Made by a program: the position numbers and the translations under genes
Origin: Lentisphaera profundi
Lineage (GTDB): Bacteria > Verrucomicrobiota > Lentisphaeria > Lentisphaerales > Lentisphaeraceae
Length of the DNA: 64,000 nucleotides
Assembly (NCBI RefSeq): GCF_028728065.1
Contig: NZ_CP117812.1
Location: 682,001 to 746,000, forward strand
Direction: 5' to 3'
Shown: piece after piece, positions 14,485 to 30,444 of the stretch
Position numbering within the stretch: position 1 is the first letter of the stretch
Layout of the letters: each line of letters opens with the position of its first letter
The notes under the pieces: model-generated
Told to the model about the DNA's origin: nothing
What the model saw: the letters and a program-made list of their open reading frames with translations, nothing else
The model's database searches: none

Positions 14485-16575
14485 ATGATGAAAGGAATTT
14501 TTTGCAGTCTCTTAGTAGGTTTGACAGGGGTGATTAGTCAGCTCCAGGCCGCAGCAAGTGAAAAACCAAACATTGTTTGGATAGTAAGCGAAGATAATGG
14601 AGCTCGTTGGTTAGGCGCTTATGGAAATCCGGCAAAGCCGACGCCGACTCTAGATAAAATGGCCACGGAGGGTTTTTTATTTACCAATACCTATGCTTCG
14701 GTGCCCGTATGTGCGCCCCAGCGTTCGACTTGGATTACCGGCATCAATGCGATTTCCATGGGAACTCAGGGGATGCGAAGTGCTTTTGAGGTCCCTGGCC
14801 ACATTAAGTATTACCCAGAGATTTTCCAAGAGATCGGCTACTATACGAGCAAAGGTGATGATGCCAAGAGCGACTACAACTTACGTGGGCCACGTGGGCG
14901 CAATGCCAATGATACTTGGAATGATTCCAAGAAAATTGTTTGGGAAAACTTAAAGAAAAACCAACCCTTCATTCACGTATTTAATACACATGCCACGCAT
15001 GAATCACGTTCCTTCGGAGGTTTTAAGCCCGAGAAAGATAAAGTGGAAAAAGCGCAGGATTTAGCCTCTTATCACCCCGATCTTCCGGGAATGCACTTTG
15101 TGTACGATAAATACAATAAGTGCATGATGAAGCTCGATGGTGAAGTCGCGGGCTGGCTAAAGGATCTTGAAGATAATGGCCTCGCAGAAAATACGATTGT
15201 TATCTATTCGTCAGATCATGGTGGTGTATTGCCACGATCCAAGCGTTACCTTTATAATAGTGGGACCCATTGCCCCTTGATTGTGCGCATTCCGCAAAAA
15301 TTTAAGCATTTGTATCCTGCGTCAAAGCCGGGCATGAAAGTGGATGAATTGGTGAGCTTCACTGATTTTCCCAAGACTTGGTTGAGCCTGGGGGGAGCGA
15401 CTTCAGAACAAGTTAAGCAGATGCAGGGGCGAGTTTTTCTGGGTAAAAACAAAGAGGCTAAGCCCGAGTATGTTTTTTCCTTTAGGAATCGCATGGATGA
15501 TCGCATGGATATGGTGCGTTCGGTTCGTGATGACAAGTATTTATATATTCGTAATTACATGCCCTTTGTACCCAATGGCCAGTTCTTGCCTTATACTTAT
15601 AATATGGAGGCGACACGTGCCTGGAAGCAGTATTTCCTCGATGGCAAAACGAATGAAATTGAATCCCGCTTCTTTGGTGATCATCGTGAGAGTGATGAGT
15701 TCTACCTCTATAATGAAGATTATGATAACGTCAAGAATGTGGCCTTGGCACACAAGTCTGATATACAAAAAATGCGTCGTGCCTTACGCGAATGGCAGCT
15801 TAAAATTTTCGATAGTGGCTTCATATCTGAATATGATATGGTTAAGGAGCTTCGTAAGCATGAGCTCACAGCCTATGAATACGTACGCAAGCCCGAGCTC
15901 TACCCCTTGGCGGAATATATCGAGATGGCCGATAAGTCTTTAGAATATGATCCAGCTAATATTTCGCTCTTTGTCGACTCATTAGACGATAAATATATTG
16001 GTAAACGTCATTGGTCGGTATTGGGTCTTTTGAACTTGAGCTTCGCAGGTAAGTTAAAGGCGAACGCGAAAGTTCTAAGCGCACTCGAGTCCTTCATAAA
16101 TCGCAAAGATGAATCAACACTTCAGCAGGCCTATGCGAGCTGGATCTTGATTCGCGAGGGCAAACAATCGGCGGGACTCGCAAAAATTCGTGCCATAGCT
16201 AAGGATGGAAATCAGTCTAGGACGATGATCAATATGCTGGATTGGATTCAATTTAAATATGTAAAAAACGTAGCTATTGAGTATTTTGTTGACGGTGAGA
16301 TGGGGGGAGTTGACTCAGTGCGAGTCCTCGCAAGTGTCTTGATTGAGAATGGTTCGCCTGAGCTTGCCGACTTGACCGAGCAGTCCGAAAAACTGCGGCA
16401 TTTAATCAAAGCTAAAGAAGGGCGCATCAAAAAGCTTAAAGCGGGTAAAGAGAAAAAATACTCACCTGAGCGTGTGCAAACTGAGATCAAAAAAACTCAG
16501 GGGGAGCTAGATAAGTATGAAGTCGAACGAAAAGCCATTCTCGAAAAGATGAGAAGCTTTATTTCTCAGTTTTAA
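14485..16575 (+). CDS. Secreted S1 sulfatase with CAPQR motif and long C-terminal region
   Basis: 696 residues, about 200 longer than the other sulfatases here. A signal peptide covers residues 1-24. Metal-binding IVSEDNGARWLGAYGN is followed by C76-A-P-Q-R80-STWITG, in which Gln replaces the usual Ser. Asp/His in YSSDHGGVLPRSKRYLYNSG complete the site, and the fold continues to a DEFYLYNEDYDNVKNVA block. After about residue 440 comes a helical extension (HEAT-like in feel) ending in a coiled coil at about 640-690 rich in Lys/Glu. The extension is not a family I can name. The two genes downstream follow at 63 and 28 bp, so an operon with the esterase and PA14 protein is likely. Confidence 0.88.
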   Translation: MMKGIFCSLLVGLTGVISQLQAAASEKPNIVWIVSEDNGARWLGAYGNPAKPTPTLDKMATEGFLFTNTYASVPVCAPQRSTWITGINAISMGTQGMRSAFEVPGHIKYYPEIFQEIGYYTSKGDDAKSDYNLRGPRGRNANDTWNDSKKIVWENLKKNQPFIHVFNTHATHESRSFGGFKPEKDKVEKAQDLASYHPDLPGMHFVYDKYNKCMMKLDGEVAGWLKDLEDNGLAENTIVIYSSDHGGVLPRSKRYLYNSGTHCPLIVRIPQKFKHLYPASKPGMKVDELVSFTDFPKTWLSLGGATSEQVKQMQGRVFLGKNKEAKPEYVFSFRNRMDDRMDMVRSVRDDKYLYIRNYMPFVPNGQFLPYTYNMEATRAWKQYFLDGKTNEIESRFFGDHRESDEFYLYNEDYDNVKNVALAHKSDIQKMRRALREWQLKIFDSGFISEYDMVKELRKHELTAYEYVRKPELYPLAEYIEMADKSLEYDPANISLFVDSLDDKYIGKRHWSVLGLLNLSFAGKLKANAKVLSALESFINRKDESTLQQAYASWILIREGKQSAGLAKIRAIAKDGNQSRTMINMLDWIQFKYVKNVAIEYFVDGEMGGVDSVRVLASVLIENGSPELADLTEQSEKLRHLIKAKEGRIKKLKAGKEKKYSPERVQTEIKKTQGELDKYEVERKAILEKMRSFISQF

Positions 16576-16638
16576 ATTTACTGATGAGCATTGGTATTTA
16601 TGGAAGCTTTCGTTGTAGAATGAAAATGGGAGTTTGAC

Positions 16639-17526
16639 TTGAAGTATATTTTAAGCCTTCTCGTAGTAGTTTTTGCGACAAACGCAAAAGACTTGCGTAA
16701 TGATGATTATTTCATTGCTCAGACTTGGGCACAGGAAAGTGATTACCAACGAAAATACATTGTGCGAGTACCCGAAAAATCCGCTCAAAAGAAATGGCCT
16801 GTCTTTATTTTCTTGCATGGCAATGGAGGCAAGGCTGAGGCATCAATGAAAAAATTCATGAAGCAGGAGAAGCTGCTCAAGGATCATTTTATTATGGTTT
16901 TCCCTCAAGGCTATAAAGCGAGTTGGAACATCGTTTCGGAGCGAGCCAAGTCGAATGACCTTGCCTTTGTGGAATCGATCATTAAGGAATTACAGAAGTA
17001 CGATAATGTTGATGCGACTAAGTTCAGTATCATGGGGAATTCCAATGGAGCGGCCCTAGTTAATCAGATTGCCATAGAGACTCAGATGACTTGTATAAAA
17101 AATTACATTTCAGCTGTGAGCCCCCTCAATGGCTACCAATACGATGGTAAGAACTTTAAAAAATGCGGGCATAATAATAATTATATTGAGGTAGCCAATC
17201 CACTCAAAGGGATTCGCCTATTAAATATATCTGGAACTCAGGATGGCTTAGTTCCCTATGAAGGTGGCGACTCTAAACGAATCCCCGCTAAAGACGGAAA
17301 ACTTCCTTTTGTCGCAGCTGAGGAGTCAATTTTTATATGGGCCAAAGCGATGGGCTATACGGGAGATAAGTTAGAGAAGGGTGAACGATTAAACAAAAAA
17401 GTAGAAAAGTTTTCTTACCTAAATGGGGATCTAATTCATTATAAAGTTGATGGCGGTCACGGTGCAGGAGGTTCCATAGGAGATGCTTTATTACTGGAGT
17501 TTCTATTAGGTGAATCACTCAGATGA
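16639..17526 (+). CDS. Secreted PHB-depolymerase/LpqC-like alpha/beta-hydrolase
   Basis: 295 residues. The N-terminus is a signal peptide (YILSLLVVVFATNA). Alpha/beta-hydrolase signs are the oxyanion block FIFLHGNGG (residues 57-64), nucleophile S135 in GNSNGAA, acid D202 in SGTQDGLVPY, and H274 in GGHGAG. These match the esterase/polyhydroxybutyrate depolymerase-like (LpqC) family; feruloyl or acetyl esterase activity on plant or algal glycans is an alternative. The start is TTG at 16639 with GGGAG six bases before it, and no closer ATG keeps the signal peptide. It sits between a sulfatase and a sugar-binding-type protein, which suggests removal of ester groups from polysaccharide. Confidence 0.8.
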   Translation: MKYILSLLVVVFATNAKDLRNDDYFIAQTWAQESDYQRKYIVRVPEKSAQKKWPVFIFLHGNGGKAEASMKKFMKQEKLLKDHFIMVFPQGYKASWNIVSERAKSNDLAFVESIIKELQKYDNVDATKFSIMGNSNGAALVNQIAIETQMTCIKNYISAVSPLNGYQYDGKNFKKCGHNNNYIEVANPLKGIRLLNISGTQDGLVPYEGGDSKRIPAKDGKLPFVAAEESIFIWAKAMGYTGDKLEKGERLNKKVEKFSYLNGDLIHYKVDGGHGAGGSIGDALLLEFLLGESLR

Positions 17527-17554
17527 AAATCATAAAAATAATTAGAGTTGTGTA

Positions 17555-20353
17555 ATGGAAATAGATTTTAATTGTCATGGTTGTGGATTGCAGTTGGCTG
17601 CTCCAAGTGAGATGGCGGGCTTGCATGTGCGTTGTGATCACTGTGATATGAAGCAAGAAGTGCCTGCGAGTTCACAAGAAATTAGTTTTTCTTGCGGGGG
17701 TTGCGCAAGATCTTTGTCAGCTCCAATCAACTACGTAGGCGGCAAAGTTCGTTGCGATCATTGCGAAACAAAAATGCTTGTGCCAAAAGCGGGGGACGAA
17801 GCTCGAATCATAGAAGAGACAAAAGTTCATGTAGTCTCTCATCCCACACCTTTAGATCCAGTAGATGTACATAGTCCGGAAGCTGAAAATACGATAGATT
17901 TGGATAATCTTTTAGATCGTGATCACGATTTAGTAGCCAGTGTAGTTACTGAACAAGATTTTAAAGTCGAAGAGCCATGTCCAAAAGAATCGCTGAGTCA
18001 AAGAGCAAAAAACTCTCGAAAAAGACAAAAATCCTCCTCGGGCTTAAGTATCTTTGTCCTTAGTTTTCTGTTGGTATTTACTGTTATTATTTGTGTAATC
18101 TATCAGAAGAAGATAAAAATAAATGATGATTCATCAATGGCACAAAGTGCTGAGTCTTCAGCGGCTGAATACGAGCCCGTCTTTGGGGCAGCCTCGAGCC
18201 CTGGCGAGCTGAATCAAAATTTGGAGGTGTCGGAACCATTAAGCCAAAAGCATATAGAAATTGTGGAGCGTATGGTTCAGCTGCCCAAGCCATTGATAAT
18301 GCGTGATTGGTTAAAAGTATCCCAGAAATACTATCAATTCATAATGCGTCCAGGTTATGAACTTGATGGTCATTTATTGATGAAAGTGAGTCCTCGAGGC
18401 AAGGATGCGGGTCAGTATGCGATCAATGCTAATTACTTATCGAGTCAATCAGGGCAAGAGGCTTGGGATTGTGAGTTTTATGATAATATGAATTTCTCAG
18501 GTACAGCAATACTTAAACGGCTTGATAGAGATATTAACTTTAACTGGAAGCACGGCAAGCCACTAGAAGAAATTGCTCGCGATAAATTCTCTGTTAGATG
18601 GTCGACAAGTTTGACCGCGCCAGAGACGCGGACTTATAAATTCTTTCTGAAATCGGATGATAGCGCACGCCTGAGTATTGATGGCAAACAAGTGATGGGC
18701 AAACTTAATGGTCTCGTGAAAACCTCGGCTGAAATCAAACTGACTAAAGGACAAAAATATGAGCTAGTACTTGAGTTTAAGGAAGTAGGAGGCGAGGCCT
18801 ACGTTTACTTCAATTGGGATTATCAATCGCCTGCAGAACGTGAAGAAATGAAACGCAATACCACCTTTGATTTACGCATGCCCTCTTACCGTCATAGTAA
18901 GCCAGGGGGTGAAATATTCACCAATGTATCTGCAGTTGTGGGGGCCAAAATGGTGGGGATTGATCCGGTTAAATTAGTGGGTTTTGATATCTTGAAGTCT
19001 GTTAAGCTTTGGTATGATGAAAAGCATGGACTCTACCGTCATGGACCAGGTCAAAATAGTCCGGAGCTGCATTCGGGAATATATGGTTATTGGAGTTCAG
19101 TCTATGGAGTGATGTTAGCGGATCTCTTTCCTGAGGACCCTGATTTTCTCAATCAAGTTAAAGCGTCTACAGATGCTTTCTTAGCGATAGCTAAGGGTCT
19201 GGGTTGCCCAGATAAGCCTGATTTTGATACCTTGGGTTTTAACTTTGAAACAAATGCTCCGGGGGGACGAAATGAACCGATGAATCGCTACGGGAATTCT
19301 CCTATAGTGGCTTGGATGAACTTGTTGGGTTATCAGCTTCAGGGAAAGCAAGAGATGCTGGAATGTGCACGTTCAGCGATGCGCTATTATACAGAAAATC
19401 CTGGACGTTATGAATTGACTCATGTGATGGCTCCTTATGTGGCTTCAAAACTCAATGCTGAACATGGAGATCAATTTGATCTAGCCAAAATCTACGAGGT
19501 ATGGTTCGGTGGAGGCGGTGAAAAGAAAATTTGGCGAATTACTGCAGGAGAAGAATTTGATGGGGTGACAGTAGATGGTCTTGATGGCGCTGTTTGGAAA
19601 AGTGGAAATTTCCTTTGCTTCACCATGGGCTCACTCAATGGACCCGCCTGGTTATTGCCTGCTTTGCGTTATGATCAAACTTATGCACGAGCAATAGCTA
19701 AGTATTCGCTTAATATGGCGAACTCTATGCGTTTGATGCAGGGCTATAAGCAGGACTGGAATCGCCAGGATCACAAAGATTGGAAGGATAAATTTGACCC
19801 CGAATACCTTTTGTTCTACGAAGCCTTGGGGAGTGCGGAGTTTAGTGATAAAAGACTGTATAGTCCCTATGCGACAGGAGACCCGATTCGCTTGGGTTGG
19901 GGGACTCCTAAAGTGGAGCGCAAGGATTATTTAGCTCAGAAAAAAGAATGGTTCTCGAAAACATCTAATAATTTAGGTATGTATATGGGCAATCATGTGG
20001 GTCTGCTCGGGGCCATTTGTGAAAAAACAAATGTCGAAGGGATCTTGCGTTGGGATTGCCTGAAAACTGAGTGGCTACACGAAAAAGCTCATCCGACCTT
20101 TTTGTATTGGAATCCTCATAGCAGCGCAAAAAAAGTGAATATAGATATTGATGACAAAGTTAAAGGCTTAGTAGATGTCTACGATAGCGTCAGTCAAAAA
20201 TTCATTGCGACGGGGCTGAAATCAGGGCAAAAAATTCGAATGGAAGCAGATCAAAGTATGCTTTTAATTATGGTGCCTCATGGTGCTGAAATAAGTCGTG
20301 AAGCTTCACAACTGAAAGCCAATGGCATAGTTATTGATTATCAGCTTAAATAA
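17555..20353 (+). CDS. Membrane-anchored zinc-ribbon, PA14 and toroid-domain protein
   Basis: 932 residues. Two zinc-ribbon-like repeats occupy residues 1-78 (CHGCG...CDHC and CGGC...CDHC, four Cys each). A polar linker and one transmembrane helix (about 163-184) follow. A PA14 domain lies at about 305-430 (CEFYDNMNFSGTAILKR, RTYKFFLKSDDSARLSIDGK, AYVYFNWDY). The C-terminal half, about 450-930, looks like an alpha/alpha-toroid of the kind in glycan hydrolases and lyases (LWYDEKHGLYRHGPG, GIYGYWSSVYGVML, NRYGNSPIVAWMNLL), ending in a beta domain. The ribbon lies inside and the PA14/toroid outside the membrane. The likely role is carbohydrate binding or processing at the surface; the reaction is unknown. 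Confidence 0.75.
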   Translation: MEIDFNCHGCGLQLAAPSEMAGLHVRCDHCDMKQEVPASSQEISFSCGGCARSLSAPINYVGGKVRCDHCETKMLVPKAGDEARIIEETKVHVVSHPTPLDPVDVHSPEAENTIDLDNLLDRDHDLVASVVTEQDFKVEEPCPKESLSQRAKNSRKRQKSSSGLSIFVLSFLLVFTVIICVIYQKKIKINDDSSMAQSAESSAAEYEPVFGAASSPGELNQNLEVSEPLSQKHIEIVERMVQLPKPLIMRDWLKVSQKYYQFIMRPGYELDGHLLMKVSPRGKDAGQYAINANYLSSQSGQEAWDCEFYDNMNFSGTAILKRLDRDINFNWKHGKPLEEIARDKFSVRWSTSLTAPETRTYKFFLKSDDSARLSIDGKQVMGKLNGLVKTSAEIKLTKGQKYELVLEFKEVGGEAYVYFNWDYQSPAEREEMKRNTTFDLRMPSYRHSKPGGEIFTNVSAVVGAKMVGIDPVKLVGFDILKSVKLWYDEKHGLYRHGPGQNSPELHSGIYGYWSSVYGVMLADLFPEDPDFLNQVKASTDAFLAIAKGLGCPDKPDFDTLGFNFETNAPGGRNEPMNRYGNSPIVAWMNLLGYQLQGKQEMLECARSAMRYYTENPGRYELTHVMAPYVASKLNAEHGDQFDLAKIYEVWFGGGGEKKIWRITAGEEFDGVTVDGLDGAVWKSGNFLCFTMGSLNGPAWLLPALRYDQTYARAIAKYSLNMANSMRLMQGYKQDWNRQDHKDWKDKFDPEYLLFYEALGSAEFSDKRLYSPYATGDPIRLGWGTPKVERKDYLAQKKEWFSKTSNNLGMYMGNHVGLLGAICEKTNVEGILRWDCLKTEWLHEKAHPTFLYWNPHSSAKKVNIDIDDKVKGLVDVYDSVSQKFIATGLKSGQKIRMEADQSMLLIMVPHGAEISREASQLKANGIVIDYQLK

Positions 20354-20374: not shown

Positions 20375-20690
20375 GCCTCACTCCAGCGTGGACTGATTTT
20401 CACCCGAAGGGTCATTTATCCGCCCGTCGATGGGTGGCAAGCCTCGCAGGGAAGGGGACGGAGTCCCAGGGCTTTAAATAAAATAAAAAACATAAAGGGG
20501 AATTAATCGCCTCACTCTAGCGTAGGCTGGTTTTTACCCGTAGGGTCATTTATCCGCCCGTCGACGGGTGGCAAGCCTCGCAGGGAAGGGGACGGAGTCC
20601 CAAGGCTTTAAATAAAATAAAAAACATAAAGGGGAATTGATTCGCCTCACTCCGGCGGGGAGGTGCTGCCACACGGGCGGGTGAAAAAAG
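20375..20690. repeat. Tandem hairpin repeat, about 134-bp unit
   Basis: Units begin GCCTCACTC at 20375, 20509 and 20644. The first two are near-identical over 134 bp and contain CCCGTCGACGGG (perfect in copy 2) and GGGAC-GGA-GTCCC; the third is a shorter variant resembling the repeat at 4847. This occupies much of the 548-bp gap between 20354 and 20901; the rest holds a G-run near 20730 and the operators listed next. No gene is seen in it. Confidence 0.75.
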
Positions 20691-20738: not shown

Positions 20739-20752
20739 TTATTACGTAATAA
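20739..20752. promoter_or_regulatory. Palindrome TTATTACGTAATAA, possible operator of mannoside operon
   Basis: A 14-bp perfect palindrome 149 bp upstream of the first operon gene. It shares the TTACGTAA core with 20876 and 10226. Confidence 0.5.
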
Positions 20753-20875
20753 AAATTATATTACTCAATTGTTTTCTTACTTAATGCCCTCTTATGGCTA
20801 GGATCAATAAAAAATAAACGACTATAGTTACTTGTAATAATGTCATTTCGTATTATTTATAAGTATTACGTAACA

Positions 20876-20883
20876 AAATAATT
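20876..20883. promoter_or_regulatory. TTACGTAA site next to mannoside operon start
   Basis: The core palindrome lies 18 bp before the ATG at 20902, a place where bound protein would block transcription or translation. A half-site (TTTCGTAT) lies near 20846. Confidence 0.45.
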
Positions 20884-20901: not shown

Positions 20902-22395
20902 ATGCCAAAAATTTTATATATCGAAGAATTAATGGAAGTGAGTGGAGTTAAGTTTGGAACCTCTGGTGCCCGAGGCTTAGCCCTGGCAATGAGTGATGAA
21001 GTTTGCTATGCCTACACAAAAGCATTTTTGACACATCTCGAAACTAGCAAGGGTATTAAGGCGGGTGGTGAAGTGGCCATTGCCGGTGATCTGCGTCCCT
21101 CTTCACCTAGGATTTGTGCGGCAGTGGCAAAAGCCGCTGAAGATATGGGCTATAAGGCTCTGTACTGCGGCGAGATTCCATCACCTGCAGTGGCGTATTA
21201 TGGTTTTTGTAATGAGGTGCCTTCAGTGATGGTAACGGGAAGTCATATTCCGGATGATCGCAATGGTATAAAGTATAACACCGCGTTTGGCGAGATTCTT
21301 AAGCAGGATGAAGAAGGTATTCGCAGTCAGAAAGTTGAAATTCCAGAGGGTGTTTTTGATGAGCAGGGTTTTTTTGTGGAGCCCCATGAATTAGGCGCAG
21401 TCTATAAAGCGGCCGAGGATGAATACATTAAGCGTTATAGCGATTTTTTTAGTAGCGATACTTTAGCTGGTTTGAGGCTTGGTGTTTACGAGCACAGTTG
21501 CGTAGGCCGCGACACCATGAAAAATATTTATGAAAAATTGGGTGCCAAAGTTATAGGTCTGGGTCGCAGTGAAAAGTTTATCCCTGTGGATACTGAAGCG
21601 ATTCGTCCAGAAGATGTAAAATTGGCGTCGAACTGGGCCCGAGAGAGTGAATTTGATGCGCTCTTAAGTGCCGATGGCGATTGTGATCGTCCACTCATTG
21701 CCGATGAAAAAGGGCAGTGGTTACGAGGTGACGTGGCGGGTATTTTATGTGCGCGATTTCTGAAAGCGGATGCGGTAGCCACGCCAGTGAGTTGTAACTC
21801 AGCACTTGAACTCAGTGAAGAATTTAAAAGTGTAAAGCGAACTAGGATAGGCAGCCCCTATGTAATTGCCGCGATGAAAGAAGCCTCTGAATCGGGATCA
21901 AAAATGGTTGTTGCTTATGAAGCGAATGGTGGTTTTTTAACAAATTCAGATTTTGTACTTGGAGATAAGACTCTGAGTGCCTTGCCCACACGTGATGCGG
22001 TGATTTTGCATATTGCACTCTTAGTAGAGATGAAAAATCGTGGCTGTCGTTTAAGTGATTTACTGACGACACTACCTGAGCGTTATACTATTTCCGATCG
22101 CTTGAAAGAATTCCCGACTCAAATGTCGAATAAAAAGCTCAGTGAATTTAGCGCGCAAACTCCGGTGCAAAATAATCTCAATATCGAGCTCATTTTTGGT
22201 GAACTTTGTGGCCAGGTGAAGTCAGTGGATACAACTGATGGCGTCCGTGTAAATTTTGCAAATAAGGAAGTGATTCATTTGCGTCCTTCAGGTAATGCCC
22301 CCGAATTGCGTTGTTATAACGAAGCCGGTTCAGAAAAACGTGCCATAGAACTCAATCAAGCATGCATGGAAATAATGACTGCTTGGCAAGAGTAA
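20902..22395 (+). CDS. Phosphohexomutase, phosphomannomutase-like
   Basis: 497 residues with the four-domain alpha-D-phosphohexomutase plan. KFGTSGARG (17-25) binds phosphate; S114 in VTGSHIPDDRNGIK is the phosphorylated serine; SADGDCDRPLIAD is the metal loop; YEANGGFL is the sugar loop; and LRPSGNAPELRCY near the C-terminus binds phosphate. It would convert mannose-1-phosphate to mannose-6-phosphate (or the glucose equivalents). In this operon, GH130 phosphorolysis makes mannose-1-phosphate, so the mannose reaction fits best. The ATG at 20902 lacks a good ribosome site; an ATG at 20932 (MEVSGVKFGT) with GAAGAA nearby would also keep the whole fold. The next gene starts 13 bp downstream. Confidence 0.88.
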   Translation: MPKILYIEELMEVSGVKFGTSGARGLALAMSDEVCYAYTKAFLTHLETSKGIKAGGEVAIAGDLRPSSPRICAAVAKAAEDMGYKALYCGEIPSPAVAYYGFCNEVPSVMVTGSHIPDDRNGIKYNTAFGEILKQDEEGIRSQKVEIPEGVFDEQGFFVEPHELGAVYKAAEDEYIKRYSDFFSSDTLAGLRLGVYEHSCVGRDTMKNIYEKLGAKVIGLGRSEKFIPVDTEAIRPEDVKLASNWARESEFDALLSADGDCDRPLIADEKGQWLRGDVAGILCARFLKADAVATPVSCNSALELSEEFKSVKRTRIGSPYVIAAMKEASESGSKMVVAYEANGGFLTNSDFVLGDKTLSALPTRDAVILHIALLVEMKNRGCRLSDLLTTLPERYTISDRLKEFPTQMSNKKLSEFSAQTPVQNNLNIELIFGELCGQVKSVDTTDGVRVNFANKEVIHLRPSGNAPELRCYNEAGSEKRAIELNQACMEIMTAWQE

Positions 22396-22408
22396 GGGAG
22401 AATTAATT

Positions 22409-24361
22409 ATGATAGCAACAATAGATTTAGGTGGTACACAAACGAAGTATGGTTTGATTCACAATGGTGAAATTGTTTCAGCGGGTCAATGTGAAGCCAA
22501 GGCACAAGGTCCGATTCACGAGCATTTAAACGAAGTTAAAGTTTATTTGGAAGACATGTGTCAAAAGCAGGACTTAAAATTGAGTGATTGCCGCGGTTTG
22601 GGGATATTAAGCACTGGTTTGGTCAATAATCAGGAAATGCGTGTTTTGACCACAAATGGGAAATACGATGATTCCAAAGAGTTCGATTTTAAAACTTGGG
22701 CTCAGGATGAATTGAGTTTGGAAGTTCGCATCGAGAATGATGCTCGTGGTGCACTACTAGGTGAGTGGCATTTTGGGGCAGCTTATGATGTTGAAAACGC
22801 GATGATGATTACGCTGGGCACAGGGATCGGAACCGCAGTTATTTCTGAAGGACGATTGCTGAAGGGCTCGCGTTACTCCGGAGGCAATTTGGGTGGACAT
22901 ATTTTGGTTAATTCAGGTGGTAGAAAGTGTACTTGTGGTGCAGTGGGATGCTTAGAGGCCGAAGCCTCGGGTTGGGCGCTGCCGGAAATTGTTCGCGAGC
23001 ATGAGTTTTATCAAAAGAGTTCATTGCGCGATGAAGTAAAACTCGGTTTTAAAGAATTATTTCAGCATGCTGATCAGGGAGATGCCTGTGCCATTGCGGT
23101 GCGTGAGCACTGTTTGAAAATGTGGGGCGAAGCATTGGTTTCTTATATTCATTTATTTGATCCTGAAAAAATTGTCATCGGAGGTGGAGTGATGCATTCC
23201 GCGGCTATGATTTTAGCTAGCTTTGATAAAACAATTAAAGAAATGGAATGGCGTGGAGGTGAAAACGTAAAAGTAGTTCAAGCCAAGCATACAGATAATG
23301 CAGGTATCCTAGGAGCCGCAGCTTTGTTCCAGGAGCACAAGCAAGTTTATGCGCCACTCTTTTTTGAACCGGTGTATAAATCAGCAATTTGGGGTGGATC
23401 ACTCATTGAGAGCATAGGCAGGCAAGTTCCTGTAAGTGATGTGCCCACTGGTGAGAGTTGGGAAATTGTTGATCGATCCGATGAGCAGAGTTGTGTGAGT
23501 GAAGGTTTATATAAAGGCTCAACTTTACGTCAGTTGATAGAAAATGATCCTGAAGGTATTGTGGGCTTAGGCCATCAGAAAGAGGATGCCTTCCCTTTGC
23601 TTTTAAAGATTATTGATGCTGAGCAAGATTTATCTTTGCAGGTTCATCCTGATGAAGAATCCTGTAAACACCTCAGCGACTCAGAACCAAAAACAGAAAT
23701 GTGGTATGTACTCGATCATCAAGTGGATGCGCAGATTCTTGCAGGTATTAAAGATGATGTGAGTCAAGAGGAATTTCGAGCGAAAATTGAAGATCCGAGT
23801 GTGCGTGAATTGATGCATTCTTATACTTCGGAGAAAGGCAGTGCCTTTTTCATCAAGGCCACCACGATGCATGCCATCGGCGGGGGTAATTTGATTTATG
23901 AAATCCAGCAGAATAGTAATACGACTTATCGAGTAAGTGACTGGGGACGTTTAGATAAAGATGGTCAATCTAGAGAACTTCATGTTGAGCAGGCGATGAC
24001 TTGTCTGGAATACAAGAATCCGACTGATGCCATAGTCCCTTACGAATTAAGTGACTGTAGTTTTGAAGCACAAGAGAATGATGATTTTTTTCAAGTGCGT
24101 CAATTGACCACATGTCAATTTTTTCAGGTCGCAGAATTTAAACTTAAAGGCCTCCTCAATTTCAATACTGAAAACCGTTGTTTTCATACACTCTATGCGG
24201 TAGATAATGATTTGAAAATCATTCATTCAGGCTGTGATTTTATCTTGAATCGTGGTCAAAGCTGTTTGATCCCTGCAAGAGCAGGTGATTATCAGATTGA
24301 GAGTCGCGAGAATACGACTTTTATTCACAGTCGACTTAGCCCTCAGCAAGTGGAGAGTTAA
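22409..24361 (+). CDS. ROK sugar kinase fused to class I mannose-6-phosphate isomerase
   Basis: 650 residues in two parts. Residues 1-310 are a ROK kinase: DLGGTQTKYG phosphate loop, ENDARGALLGEW catalytic Asp, TLGTGIGTAVIS, the zinc motif CTCGAVGCLE, and IVIGGGVMHS. Residues 315-650 are a ManA-type isomerase: PVYKSAIWGG, GESWEIVD, SLQVHPDE and TEMWYVL with the metal-binding His/Glu, then TTMHAIGGGNLIYEIQQNSNTTYRVSDWGR. The kinase would phosphorylate mannose, and the isomerase would turn mannose-6-phosphate into fructose-6-phosphate. No internal stop or frameshift separates the parts. ROK kinases vary in sugar choice, so glucose or another hexose cannot be excluded. AGGGAGAA precedes the ATG. 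Confidence 0.88.
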   Translation: MIATIDLGGTQTKYGLIHNGEIVSAGQCEAKAQGPIHEHLNEVKVYLEDMCQKQDLKLSDCRGLGILSTGLVNNQEMRVLTTNGKYDDSKEFDFKTWAQDELSLEVRIENDARGALLGEWHFGAAYDVENAMMITLGTGIGTAVISEGRLLKGSRYSGGNLGGHILVNSGGRKCTCGAVGCLEAEASGWALPEIVREHEFYQKSSLRDEVKLGFKELFQHADQGDACAIAVREHCLKMWGEALVSYIHLFDPEKIVIGGGVMHSAAMILASFDKTIKEMEWRGGENVKVVQAKHTDNAGILGAAALFQEHKQVYAPLFFEPVYKSAIWGGSLIESIGRQVPVSDVPTGESWEIVDRSDEQSCVSEGLYKGSTLRQLIENDPEGIVGLGHQKEDAFPLLLKIIDAEQDLSLQVHPDEESCKHLSDSEPKTEMWYVLDHQVDAQILAGIKDDVSQEEFRAKIEDPSVRELMHSYTSEKGSAFFIKATTMHAIGGGNLIYEIQQNSNTTYRVSDWGRLDKDGQSRELHVEQAMTCLEYKNPTDAIVPYELSDCSFEAQENDDFFQVRQLTTCQFFQVAEFKLKGLLNFNTENRCFHTLYAVDNDLKIIHSGCDFILNRGQSCLIPARAGDYQIESRENTTFIHSRLSPQQVES

Positions 24362-24363
24362 GG

Positions 24364-25419
24364 ATGGATATAGCGAAACGATTTACACAAAATCCACTTA
24401 TCCAACCCGAGGATATCTTAGCGAGTGTACAAGGTGCTGAAGTTGAGTGTCTCTTAAATCCCGGGGTCTTTAAGTTTGAAGGGAAAACTTATCTTTTAAT
24501 GCGTGTCGCTGAGCGTATGAAGCAGCGAGAGGGCTATTTATCCACTTTAGTTGTCGATCCGACTAAAGAGGGTGGGGTAAGCATTGTTGAATTTGCTTTA
24601 GATGATCCGAAACTTTGCTATGATGATGCGCGAGTTTTTAGTTATGATGGCAAGACTTATCTCACAACGCTATCGCATTTGCGTTTAGCCGAGAGTGAAG
24701 ATTGTATTAACTTTAAAGTACAGCCAAAGCCTTTATTGCTCGGTTTAGGTGAATATGAAGATTTTGGTATGGAAGATTGCCGTGTGACACAGATGGGTGA
24801 ACTCTATATCTTGACTTATACAGCGGTATCTGAGTATGGCCCCGCAGTGGGAAAAATAACAACTCGGGATTGGAAGACTTTCACTCGCGATGGAATTATG
24901 CTAGCGCCCCCCAATAAAGATTGTGCCATTTTTGAAGAAATTATTGATGACAAATTCTGGTGTTTACATCGTCCAGTGGTGAAAGTCGATAGCTGGAGTG
25001 AGCTTAATATTTGGCTTGCAAGTTCTTCAGATATGGAGCACTGGGGCAACCATATTTGTTTAGCCAAGACGCGTCCAGGGATGTGGGATAGTCAACGCAT
25101 TGGCGCAGGAGCTGCGCCGATACGTACAGAGCAGGGTTGGTTGGAAATATATCACGGCTGTGACGAAACTTCGCGTTATTGTTTGGGTGCACTGTTATTG
25201 GATCTTTCAGATCCCCGTAAGGTGATTGCACGTTCCGAAGAGCCGATTATGGAGCCTTTGGAGAAGTATGAGCAGCAAGGATTTTTTGGTAATGTGGTAT
25301 TTACCAATGGTCACCTCGTTGATGGCGATTGCTTAACTTTGTATTACGGCGCATCAGATACAGTGATATGTGCTGCAGATTTGTCGATTAAGGAGATACT
25401 TCAGACGCTTTTGTCTTAA
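24364..25419 (+). CDS. GH130 beta-mannoside phosphorylase
   Basis: 351 residues with the five-bladed GH130 propeller. NPGVFKFEGKTYLLMRVAER, CYDDARVF, the family motif FGMEDCRVT (E137, D138), WDSQRIGAGAAPIRTEQGWL and IYHGCDE are all present. The family cuts beta-mannosides with phosphate to alpha-mannose-1-phosphate plus the rest of the chain. It lacks a signal peptide, so it works in the cytoplasm. The acceptor (glucose, mannose or GlcNAc) cannot be read. It starts two bases after the fused kinase-isomerase ends (TAAGGATG), so translational coupling is likely. With its neighbours it makes a complete route from mannoside to fructose-6-phosphate. Confidence 0.88.
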   Translation: MDIAKRFTQNPLIQPEDILASVQGAEVECLLNPGVFKFEGKTYLLMRVAERMKQREGYLSTLVVDPTKEGGVSIVEFALDDPKLCYDDARVFSYDGKTYLTTLSHLRLAESEDCINFKVQPKPLLLGLGEYEDFGMEDCRVTQMGELYILTYTAVSEYGPAVGKITTRDWKTFTRDGIMLAPPNKDCAIFEEIIDDKFWCLHRPVVKVDSWSELNIWLASSSDMEHWGNHICLAKTRPGMWDSQRIGAGAAPIRTEQGWLEIYHGCDETSRYCLGALLLDLSDPRKVIARSEEPIMEPLEKYEQQGFFGNVVFTNGHLVDGDCLTLYYGASDTVICAADLSIKEILQTLLS

Positions 25420-25494
25420 AACTCATCCAAGTTCTTTCGAAAAGGAAATGATTAGTTTATAATTTAAAGAATAGCTTTATTCAAGGAAAAGTTA

Positions 25495-26946
25495 ATGCAC
25501 GAAACTTTAACAATTGCAGAAAATGAACAAGTCCCGATCAAGCAAAAAATTGCTTATGGTCTAGGTGGGCTCAGTGATTTCTTTATTCAAACGATGATTG
25601 GTGCTTTAGCGATCCCGATTTTTGCCGAGGGAATGAAACTGGATTCTTATCACTTGGGTTTTATTCTTGCAGGGACTAAAGCGGTGAGTGCTTTGGCTGA
25701 TCCTTTTGTGGGCATTGTGTCGGATAAGACAAGGAGTAAGTGGGGTCGCCGAAAGCCCTTTATATTGCTTTTTGGAATACTTTCGGCGATACTGATGCCC
25801 TTTATTTGGTATGTGCCCGATGTGAGTGATAATATGAAGTTCCTCTATATCTTTGTGACACTTTCGACTTACTTCTTTTTTCATTCGATGTTTGCGGTTC
25901 CGTATAATGCCTTGGGTTATGAAATGACCTCGAATTATGATGAAAAGACCAAGATCTTTGCCTGGAAAAAATATATTGGAATCCTCGGTATCTTAGCGGC
26001 GGCATGGTTTTATCGCTTCACGCTTTGGGATATTTTCGAAGATGAGATGCAAGGCGCCATGGTTTTGGGTGTAGTACTTGGGATTCTCACCATGTTTTGT
26101 TCTTTGGCCGTAGTGAAAGGAACTAAAGAAATTCATAAAGAAGAGGCTGAATCAAAAGTCGAAACGCCTCGTATTCCCTTTGGTGAAATTTTAAAAACTA
26201 CTTTTCAAAATAAATCCTTTATGTTAGTTCAAGGTGCAATGTTAGCGATTGCTTTAGGTATGGGCGTGGATGCGATTATGGGAACCTACCTCCATATTCA
26301 TTACACCTGCGGAGGCGATAAAATTTTAGCATCTTCAGTAGGTGGGTGGGGCGGTACTATTGCGACGGTGCCAATTCTTATTTGTGTTCCCATGGTGATC
26401 TGGATATCTAGCCACTGGGGCAAACGCGCTGCGGCAATTTGTGGAAATTTAGTGCTATTAGTCGGTGTCTGTTCAATTCCTTGGATGATGAATCAAGCTT
26501 ACCCTTATTTAATAATTGGCGTCTGGATTCTTTCGCAATTCGGAACTCAATCTTCTGGTGTGATGTATGAATCAATGATCTCGGATGTATGTGATGAAGA
26601 TGAGTTTCATACCGGTGAACGCCGCGAAGGAAGTTATGCTGCAGCGGGAAGCGTACTTAATAAAGGCGTGCAAATTGTGATTTTTTTGATCAGTGGTTAT
26701 ATGCCGAAATTGGCGGGTTATGTGGATCAATCCGTACCGCCTAATATGGAGCAGTTATTGAACATGAAGAAGCTCTTGGTGGCCACTGATATTGCTGGAG
26801 TTGCGATCGCACTATGCTGTATTTTCTTTTACCCCTTAACGCGTGATCGTTGTGCCTCAATCAAAAAGCAATTACAGGATCGTTCCGCTCAAAAAGAAGC
26901 CGCCTTGGTATCTATGCAAGAGCCAGAATCTAAAGAGTCTATTTAA
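25495..26946 (+). CDS. GPH-family (MelB-like) sugar:cation symporter
   Basis: 483 residues, about 12 transmembrane helices. IAYGLGGLSDFFIQTMIG and the loop SDKTRSKWGRRKPFIL are the glycoside-pentoside-hexuronide symporter signature, and the central loop (about 210-235) is followed by the second six-helix half. EDEFHTGERREGSYAAAGS matches the conserved block between helices 10 and 11. It would import the beta-mannoside cut by the GH130 enzyme, probably with Na+ or H+. AAGGAAAA precedes the ATG. It is separated from the GH130 gene by 75 bp and overlaps the next gene by one base. Confidence 0.9.
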   Translation: MHETLTIAENEQVPIKQKIAYGLGGLSDFFIQTMIGALAIPIFAEGMKLDSYHLGFILAGTKAVSALADPFVGIVSDKTRSKWGRRKPFILLFGILSAILMPFIWYVPDVSDNMKFLYIFVTLSTYFFFHSMFAVPYNALGYEMTSNYDEKTKIFAWKKYIGILGILAAAWFYRFTLWDIFEDEMQGAMVLGVVLGILTMFCSLAVVKGTKEIHKEEAESKVETPRIPFGEILKTTFQNKSFMLVQGAMLAIALGMGVDAIMGTYLHIHYTCGGDKILASSVGGWGGTIATVPILICVPMVIWISSHWGKRAAAICGNLVLLVGVCSIPWMMNQAYPYLIIGVWILSQFGTQSSGVMYESMISDVCDEDEFHTGERREGSYAAAGSVLNKGVQIVIFLISGYMPKLAGYVDQSVPPNMEQLLNMKKLLVATDIAGVAIALCCIFFYPLTRDRCASIKKQLQDRSAQKEAALVSMQEPESKESI

Positions 26947-27779
26947 TGTCTCTCAAAGCGATTAACTTAAAGTATGAACTTGAGTATGGCCAAAATAGAA
27001 TTGAAGTAGATAGCTATGGTGCAAAAGTGCTCGGGCTCTATTTAGGTGGAGATCATAATATCCTATTTTATGATGAAAATGATATATCTCATAGTGGGAT
27101 CCCCCTCTGCTTTCCTGGCTTTGGGCCTTTGAAAGAGGGCAAGTTTCAAAATGCGGGTAAAGATTATGAAATGAATCAGCATGGCTTTGTGAGAAATAGT
27201 GTGTTTGATTTGATTGCTCGTGGAGATAATTTTTTGAATTTCCAGCTGGAGTCAAACTTCTATACCAAGGAAAAATTTCCTTTCAATTTTCTTTTTCAAG
27301 TGAGCTATACGCTGAGTGAGAAAGAACTTATCATTGATTTATGGATTAAAAATCAGTCGCGACAAGTGATGCCACTAGCGCCGGGAATTCATCCTTATTT
27401 TGCGGTTAAAGAACCCAATGGACTTAGCTTCACGAGCCTTGCGAAAAACGCAAATAATAATTTACTCAATTATGAAGTGGTGGAGGCGTCGACAGTCTTG
27501 ACGCCATCAGAGCAAAGCTACCACATTAAAGGGGCGCCAGACCTGCACCTCATAGATCATACTTTGCAGGAGACGATGATATATCGAAAGGGCGAGTCGA
27601 ATTTGAAGATGACTGCGGATCCAAATATATTTAATCGCATGGTGATTTGGCGTAAAAGTGAAGATTCGAAGTATGTCTGTATTGAGCCCGCTTATGAACA
27701 GAATGGGCTCAATGAAAATCCGATAGCGATTTTGCCGGGAAAAGCATTCGAGACACGTGTGGTAATAGCTTTAGCCTGA
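26946..27779 (+). CDS. Aldose-1-epimerase/hexose-6-phosphate mutarotase-like protein
   Basis: 277 residues, galactose-mutarotase fold. GIPLCFPGFGPL, QHGFVRNSVFDL (His/Arg of the active site), APGIHPYFAV (second His) and ICIEPAYEQNGL-like VCIEPAYEQNGLNENPIAIL (the Glu block) are visible. It interconverts alpha and beta anomers of a hexose or hexose phosphate, which would help when GH130 and the kinase need different anomers. The ATG overlaps the stop of the symporter gene (TAATG), so the two are coupled. It is the last gene of the operon. Confidence 0.85.
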   Translation: MSLKAINLKYELEYGQNRIEVDSYGAKVLGLYLGGDHNILFYDENDISHSGIPLCFPGFGPLKEGKFQNAGKDYEMNQHGFVRNSVFDLIARGDNFLNFQLESNFYTKEKFPFNFLFQVSYTLSEKELIIDLWIKNQSRQVMPLAPGIHPYFAVKEPNGLSFTSLAKNANNNLLNYEVVEASTVLTPSEQSYHIKGAPDLHLIDHTLQETMIYRKGESNLKMTADPNIFNRMVIWRKSEDSKYVCIEPAYEQNGLNENPIAILPGKAFETRVVIALA

Positions 27780-27783
27780 ATTC

Positions 27784-27802
27784 ACTGATTTATTTAATCA
27801 GT
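27784..27802. terminator. Hairpin between convergent genes
   Basis: ACTGATT-TATTT-AATCAGT overlaps the stop codon of the leftward kinase gene and lies just past the mutarotase stop. There is no T-run, so it is only a weak candidate. Confidence 0.3.
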
Positions 27803-29850
27803 AAGTGAATATTGCTTCTCAGTGATTTAATCTGATGAGGTAAGAATTGTTTTTTAGCAATAATAACAAATTTTAAGGAGGCTAAGTTGTTGAGGGGGCT
27901 GAGGTCACTTACGAGTGTCTCCCGTAAATCAATTTCTTCGAGTAGATCTAAGCCTCTGAGTTCTTTCAAGTCGTGGATTTGAGTGCCTCGAATATCGAGT
28001 GTTTTTATTGCGAGGGGAGCGAGTAAAGACTTGCGGTGGTCAGTCATTCCACGCGTGCCAAGTATTTTAAAGTCTAGGCCTTTTAATTGTAGTTTTTTAG
28101 TCTCAGGATCGTAGCTAAATTGACTATTTTTTAAGCCACCATTGCGGGTGGCCAGCATGTGTTGAACTATTTGTTCGTAGGAAGTTTTATCTAACCTTAA
28201 TTCTGAGTCGTAGGCCATGACTTTTTCCATGAAGATCTCATTGCGATCATTGAAGGAAGTGAATAGTTTAATGAATTGACTTATGGGAATTAAGCCTTGA
28301 GGATTTTTGGGAGTTTTTAAATATTTTTTGGCTGATTTGAAGAGAGCATGGCGCGGGTTTTTATCTTTATGAAGATCGTATACAGCCTGGAAATCTTGAG
28401 CGATAAAATGATACTCAGATAAAATATTATTCCTCGCGGGGTCAGGTTTATTTGCGGTGAAATTTATTATTTTTTCTTGTACGCTTTTAACGGGGTTACG
28501 GTAATCAATTCGTTGAAAATTCGAGGGCTTCACAAGGCTTTTTTGAGCGTTTAAGGCGGCGACTCGCTTTTGTTCATTTTGATAAATAAGAATGAGTCGT
28601 TCGGCTTCAAGATGAGCATCGGTGGCTTTCTTTTCAGCAGACTCAGCGAGGGTCTTTGCAAGTAGTGCTTCTTTTTGAGAGGCAATGGCTTGCTCGGTTT
28701 TTGTATTGAGGTTAAAAATGAACTGCAGGGTCAGAGTGATAAGGACCAGGATAAATAAGACGGATAAATGGACGAGAGCACGATTGCGTTGGTAGAGAAG
28801 TTTGATGCCTTTTAGTATAGAGGCATTTTCTGCATCGGTTGCAAAGCCCGCGAGGTAGTTATAGACTTCGTCGCGCAGTTTGGTGACGCTTTGGTAGCGA
28901 TCTTCTTGTTTGAGTGAAACGGCTTTCATAACAACCGCATTCAGACTTTCGGGGGTCTTAAGGTGAGGGAACCTCACTTGTGGAGAGAGTATTAAACCTT
29001 TTGACGTTTTTTGAAGGACTTCTTGGGTGTCGCCTTCAAGAGGGTAACAGTTTGTGAGAATACTGTAAAGTAGGCAGCCGAGAGCGTAGATATCGGTAGT
29101 GGTATTTTTTTCGAGTTCTTTATTAATTTGCTCTGGAGCCATGTAGCCGGGAGTGCCTTTGACCTGGCCTGTTAGGGTCATGTTATTGAGCCAATCTGAG
29201 TTAAAGAGTTCTGCGTCACAAGAATGCTCTTTCGATCCTATGATTTTGGCTAAGCCCCAGTCGCACACCAAAACTTCCCCAAAGTCGCCAACCTGAATAT
29301 TGGCAGGTTTAATATCTAGATGAATGACGCCTTTTGAGTGTGAAAAGGCAATGGCATCACAGATTTTAATAAATATCTCGAGTAGTTTATTGAGGGGGTA
29401 GGAATCTATGTATTCTGCTTTGTTAGTATTTTTGGAGCGTAATATCTTTTCTAGATTATCGCCTTCTTTGAGTTCCATGGTGAAAAAAGGACTATGGTCT
29501 TCGTCGACGCCGAGGTCATGGACGGTCATGATATTGGGGTGTTCCAAAAGTCCTGTTATACGAGCTTCGCAAATGAAGGGGTCGTAAAACTCTTTTCCTG
29601 CTTCGCTATGGAGTTTAGCCATGGCGATATAGCGGCCGGCGACAGAGTCGAACACCCGGTAGATTTTTTTCATGCCACCTTGATTGATTGCTTCGGGATC
29701 TAGGTAGCGTTTTTTAATAATTTCAAGGCTCTCAAATAGAGGGCTACTTTGCGTGGAATCGTCATTTGAACTATCCAAGGCCGTATCAAATAAGGATAAG
29801 AGATTATCCATTTTTGTATGTTGAGGTTCTTCTTTGCTCGAGGGAGTCAT
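27790..29850 (-). CDS. Membrane Ser/Thr protein kinase with leucine-rich C-terminus
   Basis: 686 residues. The kinase domain (about 50-340) has INQGGMKKIYRVFD, K79 in IAMAKLH, HLDIKPANI (D179), D197 in VCDWGLAK (DWG in place of DFG) and GTPGYMAPEQ. One transmembrane helix lies at about 355-378, then a coiled coil, then a region ending in LRR-like repeats (LDIRGTQIHDLKELRGLDLL, IDLRETLVSDLSPL). The kinase domain faces the cytoplasm. Planctomycete-type kinases of this plan often partner ECF-like sigma factors; here the sigma gene lies six bases upstream on the same strand. Substrates are unknown. Confidence 0.85.
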   Translation of the reverse strand: MTPSSKEEPQHTKMDNLLSLFDTALDSSNDDSTQSSPLFESLEIIKKRYLDPEAINQGGMKKIYRVFDSVAGRYIAMAKLHSEAGKEFYDPFICEARITGLLEHPNIMTVHDLGVDEDHSPFFTMELKEGDNLEKILRSKNTNKAEYIDSYPLNKLLEIFIKICDAIAFSHSKGVIHLDIKPANIQVGDFGEVLVCDWGLAKIIGSKEHSCDAELFNSDWLNNMTLTGQVKGTPGYMAPEQINKELEKNTTTDIYALGCLLYSILTNCYPLEGDTQEVLQKTSKGLILSPQVRFPHLKTPESLNAVVMKAVSLKQEDRYQSVTKLRDEVYNYLAGFATDAENASILKGIKLLYQRNRALVHLSVLFILVLITLTLQFIFNLNTKTEQAIASQKEALLAKTLAESAEKKATDAHLEAERLILIYQNEQKRVAALNAQKSLVKPSNFQRIDYRNPVKSVQEKIINFTANKPDPARNNILSEYHFIAQDFQAVYDLHKDKNPRHALFKSAKKYLKTPKNPQGLIPISQFIKLFTSFNDRNEIFMEKVMAYDSELRLDKTSYEQIVQHMLATRNGGLKNSQFSYDPETKKLQLKGLDFKILGTRGMTDHRKSLLAPLAIKTLDIRGTQIHDLKELRGLDLLEEIDLRETLVSDLSPLNNLASLKFVIIAKKQFLPHQIKSLRSNIHLLIK

Positions 29851-29856
29851 GTATAA

Positions 29857-30444
29857 TCAATATTCCAATTGGCTAACGAGGGCTCGGACTTCTTCCATGA
29901 ATTTCTTTTTAACACGGTTTTTAAGTACGTAAACGGAATCTTTTTTGAGATTGAGTTGTTCGGCAATGGCATCGGTTGTCATGCCTTTCATCGAGAGCTC
30001 AAAGACTTCGATGGCATTTCCTGAAAATAGTGATTCCATTTTTTTGAATGCGAGCTCACAAATATAGGATTTCCATTCTTTTTCAATCATTAGGTCGAGC
30101 TCGGATTGAGGGGTCGAGTCGAGGTAGCTATTCATTTCGCTGGCATCGCGCTTGGCTTGGTTAGCTTGCTTGCGATAGTAATTCATGGTTGTATTGCGAA
30201 TTACGGCACCCATCCAGTTTCGAAACGAGGCTTTTTCTTTATCGTATTTCTCTAAATCTTTCCATAGGCTAAGTAAAATCATTTGAGTTAAATCATCGGT
30301 ATCCGCCCCAGAGAAACGAAGCTTATAGATGAGGACCTGAATAAATTGTTTGTAGTAGGAGACGAATTCTTCCCAGGCCTGATAATCATCTGGATTTTTG
30401 GCGCGCTGAAGGAGAGTCTGGCGGGTAGCCCATTCATTACTCAT
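29857..30444 (-). CDS. ECF-like RNA polymerase sigma factor
   Basis: 195 residues. Region 2 is DTDDLTQMILLSLWKDLEKYDKEKASFRNWMGAVIRN (about 46-84), with the RNA-polymerase and -10 contacts. Region 4 is MTTDAIAEQLNLKKDSVYVLKNRVKKKF near the C-terminus, a helix-turn-helix for the -35 box. It belongs to the PVC sigma factors found beside Ser/Thr kinases. The kinase follows six bases on, so the two are almost certainly co-transcribed; phosphorylation or membrane sequestration of the sigma factor is a natural hypothesis but is not shown by the sequence. Confidence 0.85.
   Translation of the reverse strand: MSNEWATRQTLLQRAKNPDDYQAWEEFVSYYKQFIQVLIYKLRFSGADTDDLTQMILLSLWKDLEKYDKEKASFRNWMGAVIRNTTMNYYRKQANQAKRDASEMNSYLDSTPQSELDLMIEKEWKSYICELAFKKMESLFSGNAIEVFELSMKGMTTDAIAEQLNLKKDSVYVLKNRVKKKFMEEVRALVSQLEY

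Follow-up and report, generated by a model that had tools for sequence, protein, structure and literature searches.

We characterized a five-gene operon of Lentisphaera profundi that centres on a gene for a glycoside hydrolase family 130 (GH130) phosphorylase. It lies in a stretch of 64,000 nucleotides, referred to here as the window (G000:C2:682001-746000 of the two-contig 5.46-Mb genome G000); coordinates without a prefix are window positions. The positions and domain assignments of the five open reading frames (ORFs) agree with those given in a first-pass annotation of this DNA, and all five proteins scored above the Pfam cut-offs:

20902-22395, + strand: phosphohexomutase of the PGM/PMM superfamily (Pfam PGM_PMM I-IV), predicted to convert mannose-1-phosphate (Man-1-P) to mannose-6-phosphate (Man-6-P)
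22409-24361, + strand: ROK sugar kinase fused to a class I mannose-6-phosphate isomerase, ManA (Pfam, NCBIfam)
24364-25419, + strand: GH130 phosphorylase, predicted to be of the beta-1,2-mannobiose type (Pfam Glyco_hydro_130, tree, residues)
25495-26946, + strand: GPH/MFS_2 sugar symporter (Pfam MFS_2)
26946-27779, + strand: aldose 1-epimerase-like (mutarotase) gene (Pfam Aldose_epim)

The genes are spaced by 13, 2, 75 and -1 bp, and the 3′ end of the operon is ~10 bp from a convergent kinase gene. We found no + strand terminator-like site in the 75-bp gap before the symporter gene, and promoter-like sites were no more frequent than chance in a consensus promoter scan; a single transcript of the five genes is therefore plausible.

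The second gene encodes ROK, PMI_typeI_cat and MPI_cupin domains (Pfam) in a single protein of 650 amino acids (aa). When the proteins were compared with NCBIfam models, the ManA half scored above the cut-off of TIGR00218 manA (129.5, cut-off 116.2), the ROK half was above cut-off for no single kinase equivalog and the carrier stayed below that of TIGR00792 gph (177.8, cut-off 231.35). The best NCBIfam matches of the mutase were GlmM-type and far under cut-off, so that its substrate is assigned from the context. We rejected the possibility that it is the cell's sole GlmM/PMM, as the genome contains five PGM_PMM_I matches. Catalytic-looking motifs were seen in the ROK half, the ManA half and the mutase, and we presume their roles. 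In a sample of 387 genomes of the phylum, three have the full-length ROK-ManA fusion, each of them a member of this genus; it is also present in a genome of the same family outside the sample (G005), and a 673-aa ORF in G088 matches the ManA half alone. The ROK-ManA fusion marks the pathway in a lineage-specific way. The mutarotase is probably accessory and outside the conserved gene set, because the related loci that we searched gave no homologue of it.

Which beta-mannoside is cleaved depends on the GH130 protein, whose PF04041 domain scored 168 bits (cut-off 26 bits). Its best solved relatives are entries of Uhgb_MS, a mannoside synthase of a gut bacterium (E 1e-133), one of which is a complex with 1,2-beta-mannobiose. 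These are followed by Lin0857 (6e-89), a characterized beta-1,2-mannobiose phosphorylase as described in PMC8950772, and by Teth514_1788 (5e-51) and Teth514_1789 (2e-45). Enzymes acting on beta-1,4 linkages rank lower (TM1225, 1.4e-40; UHGB_MP, 1.4e-27), and mannosyl-glucose phosphorylase gave 1e-18 and weaker. In a tree of 28 rows with TM1225 as the one beta-1,4 reference (L002, score 26.6, was left out), the protein and Uhgb_MS share a clade of 6 rows (support 90/93) and fall together with Lin0857 into a wider clade of 13 rows (support 99/97), whereas TM1225 is found in the other half. Identity is 58.6% to Uhgb_MS over 345 aligned residues and 43.4% to Lin0857.

Two diagnostic motifs agree with this placement. 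The NKD (Lys185) and ED (Glu137) motifs are present as in all four beta-1,2 references, whereas TM1225 carries NRN and YD. Beta-1,2 specificity has been attributed to a lysine common to the beta-1,2 enzymes, which contacts O2 of the +1 mannose (Cuskin et al., PMC4599007), and a glutamate preceding the catalytic aspartate has been described as well (PMC4264767). The lysine of NKD is presumably this residue (Lys199 of BT3780). The arginine of RVAER and the HRP motif are conserved with the phosphorylases and may include the basic phosphate-binding residues that set phosphorylases apart from GH130 hydrolases. The first-pass annotation had left the acceptor sugar open and had proposed a phylogeny against the mannosyl-glucose, mannobiose and mannosyl-N-acetylglucosamine (GlcNAc) subfamilies. 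For the mannobiose option no linkage had been given. Tree and residues place the enzyme in the beta-1,2 group and largely answer the acceptor question: mannose, or else a shorter beta-1,2-oligomannoside, is the most likely acceptor. Neither beta-1,4-mannan nor N-glycan fragments are likely to be substrates, and we rejected them as the leading interpretation on the same two grounds. Two other genomes of the genus encode the protein with 84% and 75% identity, which puts the operon far beyond chance. Two 83-aa ORFs in Lentisphaera marina (G001:C1:2342311-2342448 and 2348160-2348303) match GH130 residues 30-78 only, with 56-59% identity; they may be stand-alone fragments or remnants.

A further gene of interest lies to the left of the window:

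G000:C2:677012-677944: DUF1861/GT108-type gene (PF08950, 397 bits)

Its product matches the structures of Leishmania MPT-1, MPT-2, MPT-4 and 2b4w (E 1e-49 to 1e-43). The match to 6q4x (E 1.1e-49 over 288 residues) establishes homology to characterized GT108 proteins. Leishmania MPT proteins are GT108 enzymes that act on mannogen, a beta-1,2-mannan reserve (PMC8950772; mannogen defined in PMC3290622). In the literature searched, DUF1861 turned up in one paper, on Leishmania. Five matches to the DUF1861 protein were obtained in a plasmid collection, among them an unannotated Niallia record and a second Listeria record; in 3/3 annotated records examined (Metabacillus, Sphingomonas and Listeria) the DUF1861 gene adjoins a GH130 gene. 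On the Metabacillus plasmid, ROK and manA genes are separate neighbours ~5 kb downstream of the adjacent pair.

The operon and the DUF1861 gene share a putative regulatory signal. The following sites were predicted in the window:

20739-20752: LacI operator TTATTACGTAATAA, a near-perfect palindrome, ~150 bp 5′ of the mutase gene
20863-20876: second operator GTATTACGTAACAA (site scan), 25 bp ahead of the mutase start codon
10226-10239: operator ATATTACGTAATAT (site scan), between the sulfatase gene 8658-10124 (- strand) and a pseudopilin gene, ~100 bp before the sulfatase

The exact 14-mer TTATTACGTAATAA occurs at two places in the genome, before the operon and at C2:678009, 64 bp before the DUF1861 gene. 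The motif ATTACGTAAT occurs at nine places genome-wide, three of them in the locus (binomial P 2e-5). In related genomes, the counts in the locus and genome-wide are 3/6 in G002, 1/2 in G005 and 0/2 in L. marina (G001), which is without the LacI gene. In L. profundi a LacI-family gene (PF00356 and PF13377 above cut-off) is located 28 kb upstream of the operon at G000:C2:674028-675035. Nine sites from G000, G002 and G005 served to train a site model, which recognized further sites, all at places outside the training set: in G002, two before DUF1861 and two before a sulfatase gene; in G005, two before DUF1861. G002 thereby repeats the operator-sulfatase arrangement (L107 12217 and 12235). The scanned loci of L. 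marina contained no site above 10.5 bits, and no LacI orthologue was found in this genome at E<=1e-20. Regulator gene and sites are thus both present in three genomes and both absent from the fourth (4/4 concordant), which is good, though small, evidence for a LacI regulon with predicted binding.

The set of genes is conserved as well. Genes for DUF1861, an unnamed protein family (see below), the GPH symporter, GH130 and a sulfatase recur in four genomes of the Lentisphaera family: the present one, L. marina (same genus), G002 and G005 (same family). G005 carries the ROK-ManA fusion, LacI, a PA14-containing paralogue of the unnamed family, GH130, sulfatase, GPH symporter, lipoprotein and DUF1861 genes within ~20 kb. 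In L. marina the mutase, DUF1861, lipoprotein, GPH, GH130, kinase, PA14 paralogue and sulfatase genes stand together with ROK-ManA nearby. In G002 a single contig holds most of the set, and LacI and ROK-ManA are found on different contigs. The symporter is kept in all four loci and mutase orthologues are found in those of G002 and L. marina, while two other genomes of the family (G003 and G004) gave no match to GH130.

The unnamed family comprises two paralogues in L. profundi (26% identity), one of 598 aa, which adjoins DUF1861, and one in the window:

17555-20353, + strand: 932-aa paralogue with an inserted PA14 domain (Pfam, alignment)

The 598-aa protein matched no Pfam or NCBIfam family at E<=1e-3, and eight of its relatives gave only stray Pfam matches at E<=1 (E>=0.06). 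Three orthologues show by eye a lipobox-like signal. The 932-aa protein matched Pfam via the inserted PA14 domain only, and NCBIfam over the PA14 region only (E 2e-8). A scan of genome contigs yielded ten loci with the family, in Lentisphaerales, Planctomycetota, Bacteroidota and one unassigned bacterium, and 6 of the 387 sample genomes match it beyond the PA14 region. Three versions bear LamG, PKD and Por secretion domains, which suggests extracellular work on carbohydrates. A model of the G005 orthologue (pLDDT 85, pTM 0.88) consists of a helical barrel and a C-terminal beta-sandwich. Fold likenesses were assessed for the GH families named in the VIA or Foldseek rows: VIA placed GH76 mannanases first (Z 18.8, rmsd 3.5, 317 aligned), its GH76 matches covering about 290-340 residues at Z 18.8 to 16.3, and Foldseek placed GH146/GH127 first with low TM scores. 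The model thus has an (alpha/alpha)6-type fold. Its predicted fold is like that of the GH76 endo-alpha-1,6-mannanases, but the family differs from them in its low identity (8-14%), the absence of a GH76 match in Pfam or NCBIfam, the extra C-terminal beta-sandwich and the PA14 insertion in one paralogue. Conserved acidic residues are E285, E424 and D441 (alignment A4). We regard the proteins as a candidate family of glycoside hydrolases and can only guess at their substrate from genomic association.

From the genes, their relationships, the sites and their conservation we infer the following route. The GPH symporter would import beta-1,2-mannobiose or short beta-1,2-oligomannosides. GH130 would cleave the terminal beta-1,2 bond with inorganic phosphate to give alpha-mannose-1-phosphate and mannose, the mutase would convert Man-1-P to Man-6-P, the ROK half would phosphorylate mannose to Man-6-P and the ManA half would isomerize Man-6-P to fructose-6-phosphate (Fru-6-P). 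Phosphorolysis would save one ATP per bond, and the presence of ROK and ManA in one polypeptide makes sense if the acceptor is mannose. Outside the cytoplasm, the GH76-like lipoproteins and secreted sulfatases would probably trim the sugar, and the LacI regulator would control the operon, the DUF1861/GT108-type gene and the sulfatase group via sites like TTATTACGTAATAA. We consider it probable that the operon is the cytoplasmic end of such a LacI-controlled regulon for beta-1,2-mannoside utilization with trimming outside. The cytoplasmic phosphorolysis with entry of both products into Fru-6-P, already proposed in the first-pass annotation, fits all gene assignments. That annotation had also called the operon complete; the five genes are confirmed, but for the system the word is overstated because the regulator, the GT108-type gene and the candidate depolymerases lie outside the operon, and operator sites, LacI, DUF1861, two unnamed paralogues and sulfatases are conserved along with it. 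A further-reaching proposal, namely that the unnamed proteins are a new hydrolase family with a GH76-like fold that depolymerizes a sulfated beta-1,2-mannose glycan of marine origin and is joined through LacI to the GT108-type and GH130 route, making this the first utilization locus for such a glycan, is tentative.

Several observations weigh against this assignment. The GH130 protein remained below the curated cut-offs of the NCBIfam equivalog for beta-1,2-mannobiose phosphorylase (NF050092; 398.8, cut-off 550 bits) and of a second beta-1,2-mannobiose model (217.8, cut-off 450), so that we place it in the beta-1,2 group and not in these equivalogs. Since Uhgb_MS is listed as a mixed-linkage synthase (PMC8950772), the specificity may be broader than beta-1,2-mannobiose. 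The site scan found no operator before the LacI gene or the group of sulfatase, esterase and 932-aa genes (14485-20353) in this genome, and the locus span behind the P values for ATTACGTAAT was picked after the sites had been seen. The four genomes of the Lentisphaera family are related and count as little more than one event. Three more distant DUF1861 genes, from further genomes of the phylum (proteins 35-37% identical), do not stand next to a GH130 gene. Outside the Lentisphaera family, a clear GH130 accompanies the unnamed family in loci L065 and L067; in L064 and L068 a GH130-like protein falls just below the Pfam cut-off, and none was found in L066, L069, L104 and L105. Within the family of L. 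profundi, L102 (G003) likewise has none. The tally excludes two short contigs (L070 and L071) and L103.

Sulfatase and accessory genes surround the operon on its 5′ side:

8658-10124, - strand: sulfatase S4, immediately left of the operator; G002 (84%) and G005 (76%) have orthologues
7031-8554, - strand: sulfatase S3; orthologues in G002 (90%) and G005 (68%)
5163-6629, - strand: 487-aa protein in the sulfatase group with a weak, sub-threshold GH43 match; 89% identical in G002
3059-4603, - strand: sulfatase S2; 94% in G002 and 82% in L. marina
1431-2915, - strand: sulfatase S1, of uncertain membership, with no clear orthologue in related loci
14485-16575, + strand: sulfatase retained in the locus at 52-84% identity; among solved structures, S1_8 sulfatases are its closest relatives
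16639-17526, + strand: secreted-looking esterase-like protein; 86% in G002

No solved relative of the 487-aa protein was found; it is possibly a divergent beta-propeller glycosidase.

The sulfatases and the GH43-like gene point to a heteroglycan, and in the alternative that survives best mannose would be beta-1,2-linked to another sugar, which the ROK kinase phosphorylates, or alpha-1,2-mannosides would be acceptors as for Uhgb_MS. This closest relative accepts alpha-1,2-mannobiose besides mannose according to PMC8950772, and the ROK half with its lack of a single equivalog would fit. However, the fusion couples kinase and isomerase, most simply for the conversion of mannose via Man-6-P to Fru-6-P, and we regard a mixed glycan as rather unlikely. 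Phosphorolysis of beta-1,4-mannan, mannosyl-glucose or N-glycans (Man-GlcNAc) is improbable: PF04041 is named for beta-1,4-mannooligosaccharide phosphorylase, the beta-1,4 enzymes match too, if more weakly, and a nagA-like gene lies 5.5 kb downstream of the operon, but the ranking of solved relatives, the tree and both diagnostic residues favour beta-1,2, and a tRNA as well as a convergent kinase/sigma-factor pair lie between the operon and nagA. A GlcNAc acceptor deduced from nagA is unsupported, this gene belonging to a different group. Least probable of all is an internal cycle in place of scavenging from outside, in which an intracellular, mannogen-like beta-1,2-mannan is built up and recycled by the GT108-type protein together with GH130 and Man-1-P is exchanged via the mutase: both reactions are reversible and the Leishmania relatives of DUF1861 act on a mannogen reserve (PMC8950772), but the same conserved set includes genes for a GPH importer, a lipoprotein and a secreted sulfatase, a LacI-type regulator is present and the Firmicute counterparts have ABC importers.

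Utilization of beta-1,2-mannosides, the assignment we prefer, can be compared with known systems. The DUF1861-GH130 locus of Listeria likewise contains a LacI gene, an importer, DUF1861 (51% identical), GH130 (43% identical) and a phospho-sugar mutase. It differs in its ABC importer and an alpha-amylase-family gene; its 17 features shown include no sulfatase, unnamed family or ROK-ManA fusion, and DUF1861 is adjacent to GH130 there but about 27 kb away here. Teth514_1788 and Teth514_1789 of Thermoanaerobacter are GH130 enzymes specific for beta-1,2 linkages that act after uptake, and their division of labour by chain length is a model for the GT108-type and GH130 proteins described here (PMC4264767). 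By this analogy, our guess is that the DUF1861 protein takes chains with a degree of polymerization of at least 3 and GH130 the disaccharide. The two Thermoanaerobacter enzymes are however both GH130 and are proposed to feed GDP-mannose (PMC4264767), whereas the route proposed here leads to Fru-6-P. Uhgb_MS falls into a neighbouring group of the tree and is itself described as a mixed-linkage synthase; the Leishmania GT108 mannosyltransferases/phosphorylases are alike in the structure match, but the DUF1861 gene studied here is bacterial and part of a sugar-uptake gene set.

No published description of such a locus was found in the literature searched, most subscription journals being outside its reach. 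The cytoplasmic core resembles the Listeria locus and is an ordinary operon of a known kind in a new setting; the new parts are the unnamed family, the sulfatases, the GPH importer with the fused ROK-ManA and the placement in a predicted LacI regulon. The substrate we predict, beta-1,2-mannosides, departs from the plant beta-1,4-mannan or N-glycan that is usually expected. Such mannosides have been found chiefly in yeasts, trypanosomatids and some O-antigens (PMC4264767). If the assignment is true, marine Lentisphaera would eat a sulfated beta-1,2-mannose glycan, and there would be a testable functional context both for the secreted family of GH76-like fold and for a bacterial relative of GT108.

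Some further features were observed around the locus. The Ser/Thr kinase and sigma-factor-like genes (27790-30444), convergent with the operon, have counterparts next to the related loci, at L063 14221-16811 in L. marina and at L106 7110-9765 in G002, and may be functionally linked to the locus. A long + strand gene reaching from L057 17156-20000 into the window (to position 1025) ends with NPCBM and F5/8 type C domains. On visual inspection, L063 (4981-8880) and L106 (3186-6989) have a long gene resembling it next to DUF1861, so that this gene may belong to the locus. Two pseudopilin-like genes (10483-11139 and 13099-13764) lie on either side of a DDE transposase gene (11194-12651) and share 91% identity over 632 bp. 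Such genes are also found beside two predicted operators and, in L064 and L065, directly before the unnamed family; pseudopilins may be connected with the use of glycans in these phyla. Downstream, nagA, a class II DAHP synthase and a PPK2-type polyphosphate:AMP phosphotransferase follow each other in tight succession (33247-37230), an unusual trio. Between the 932-aa gene and the operators (20375-20641) lie two copies of a 133-bp repeat, 93% identical to each other; this dispersed repeat has 53 matches in the genome, mostly partial and in local clusters.

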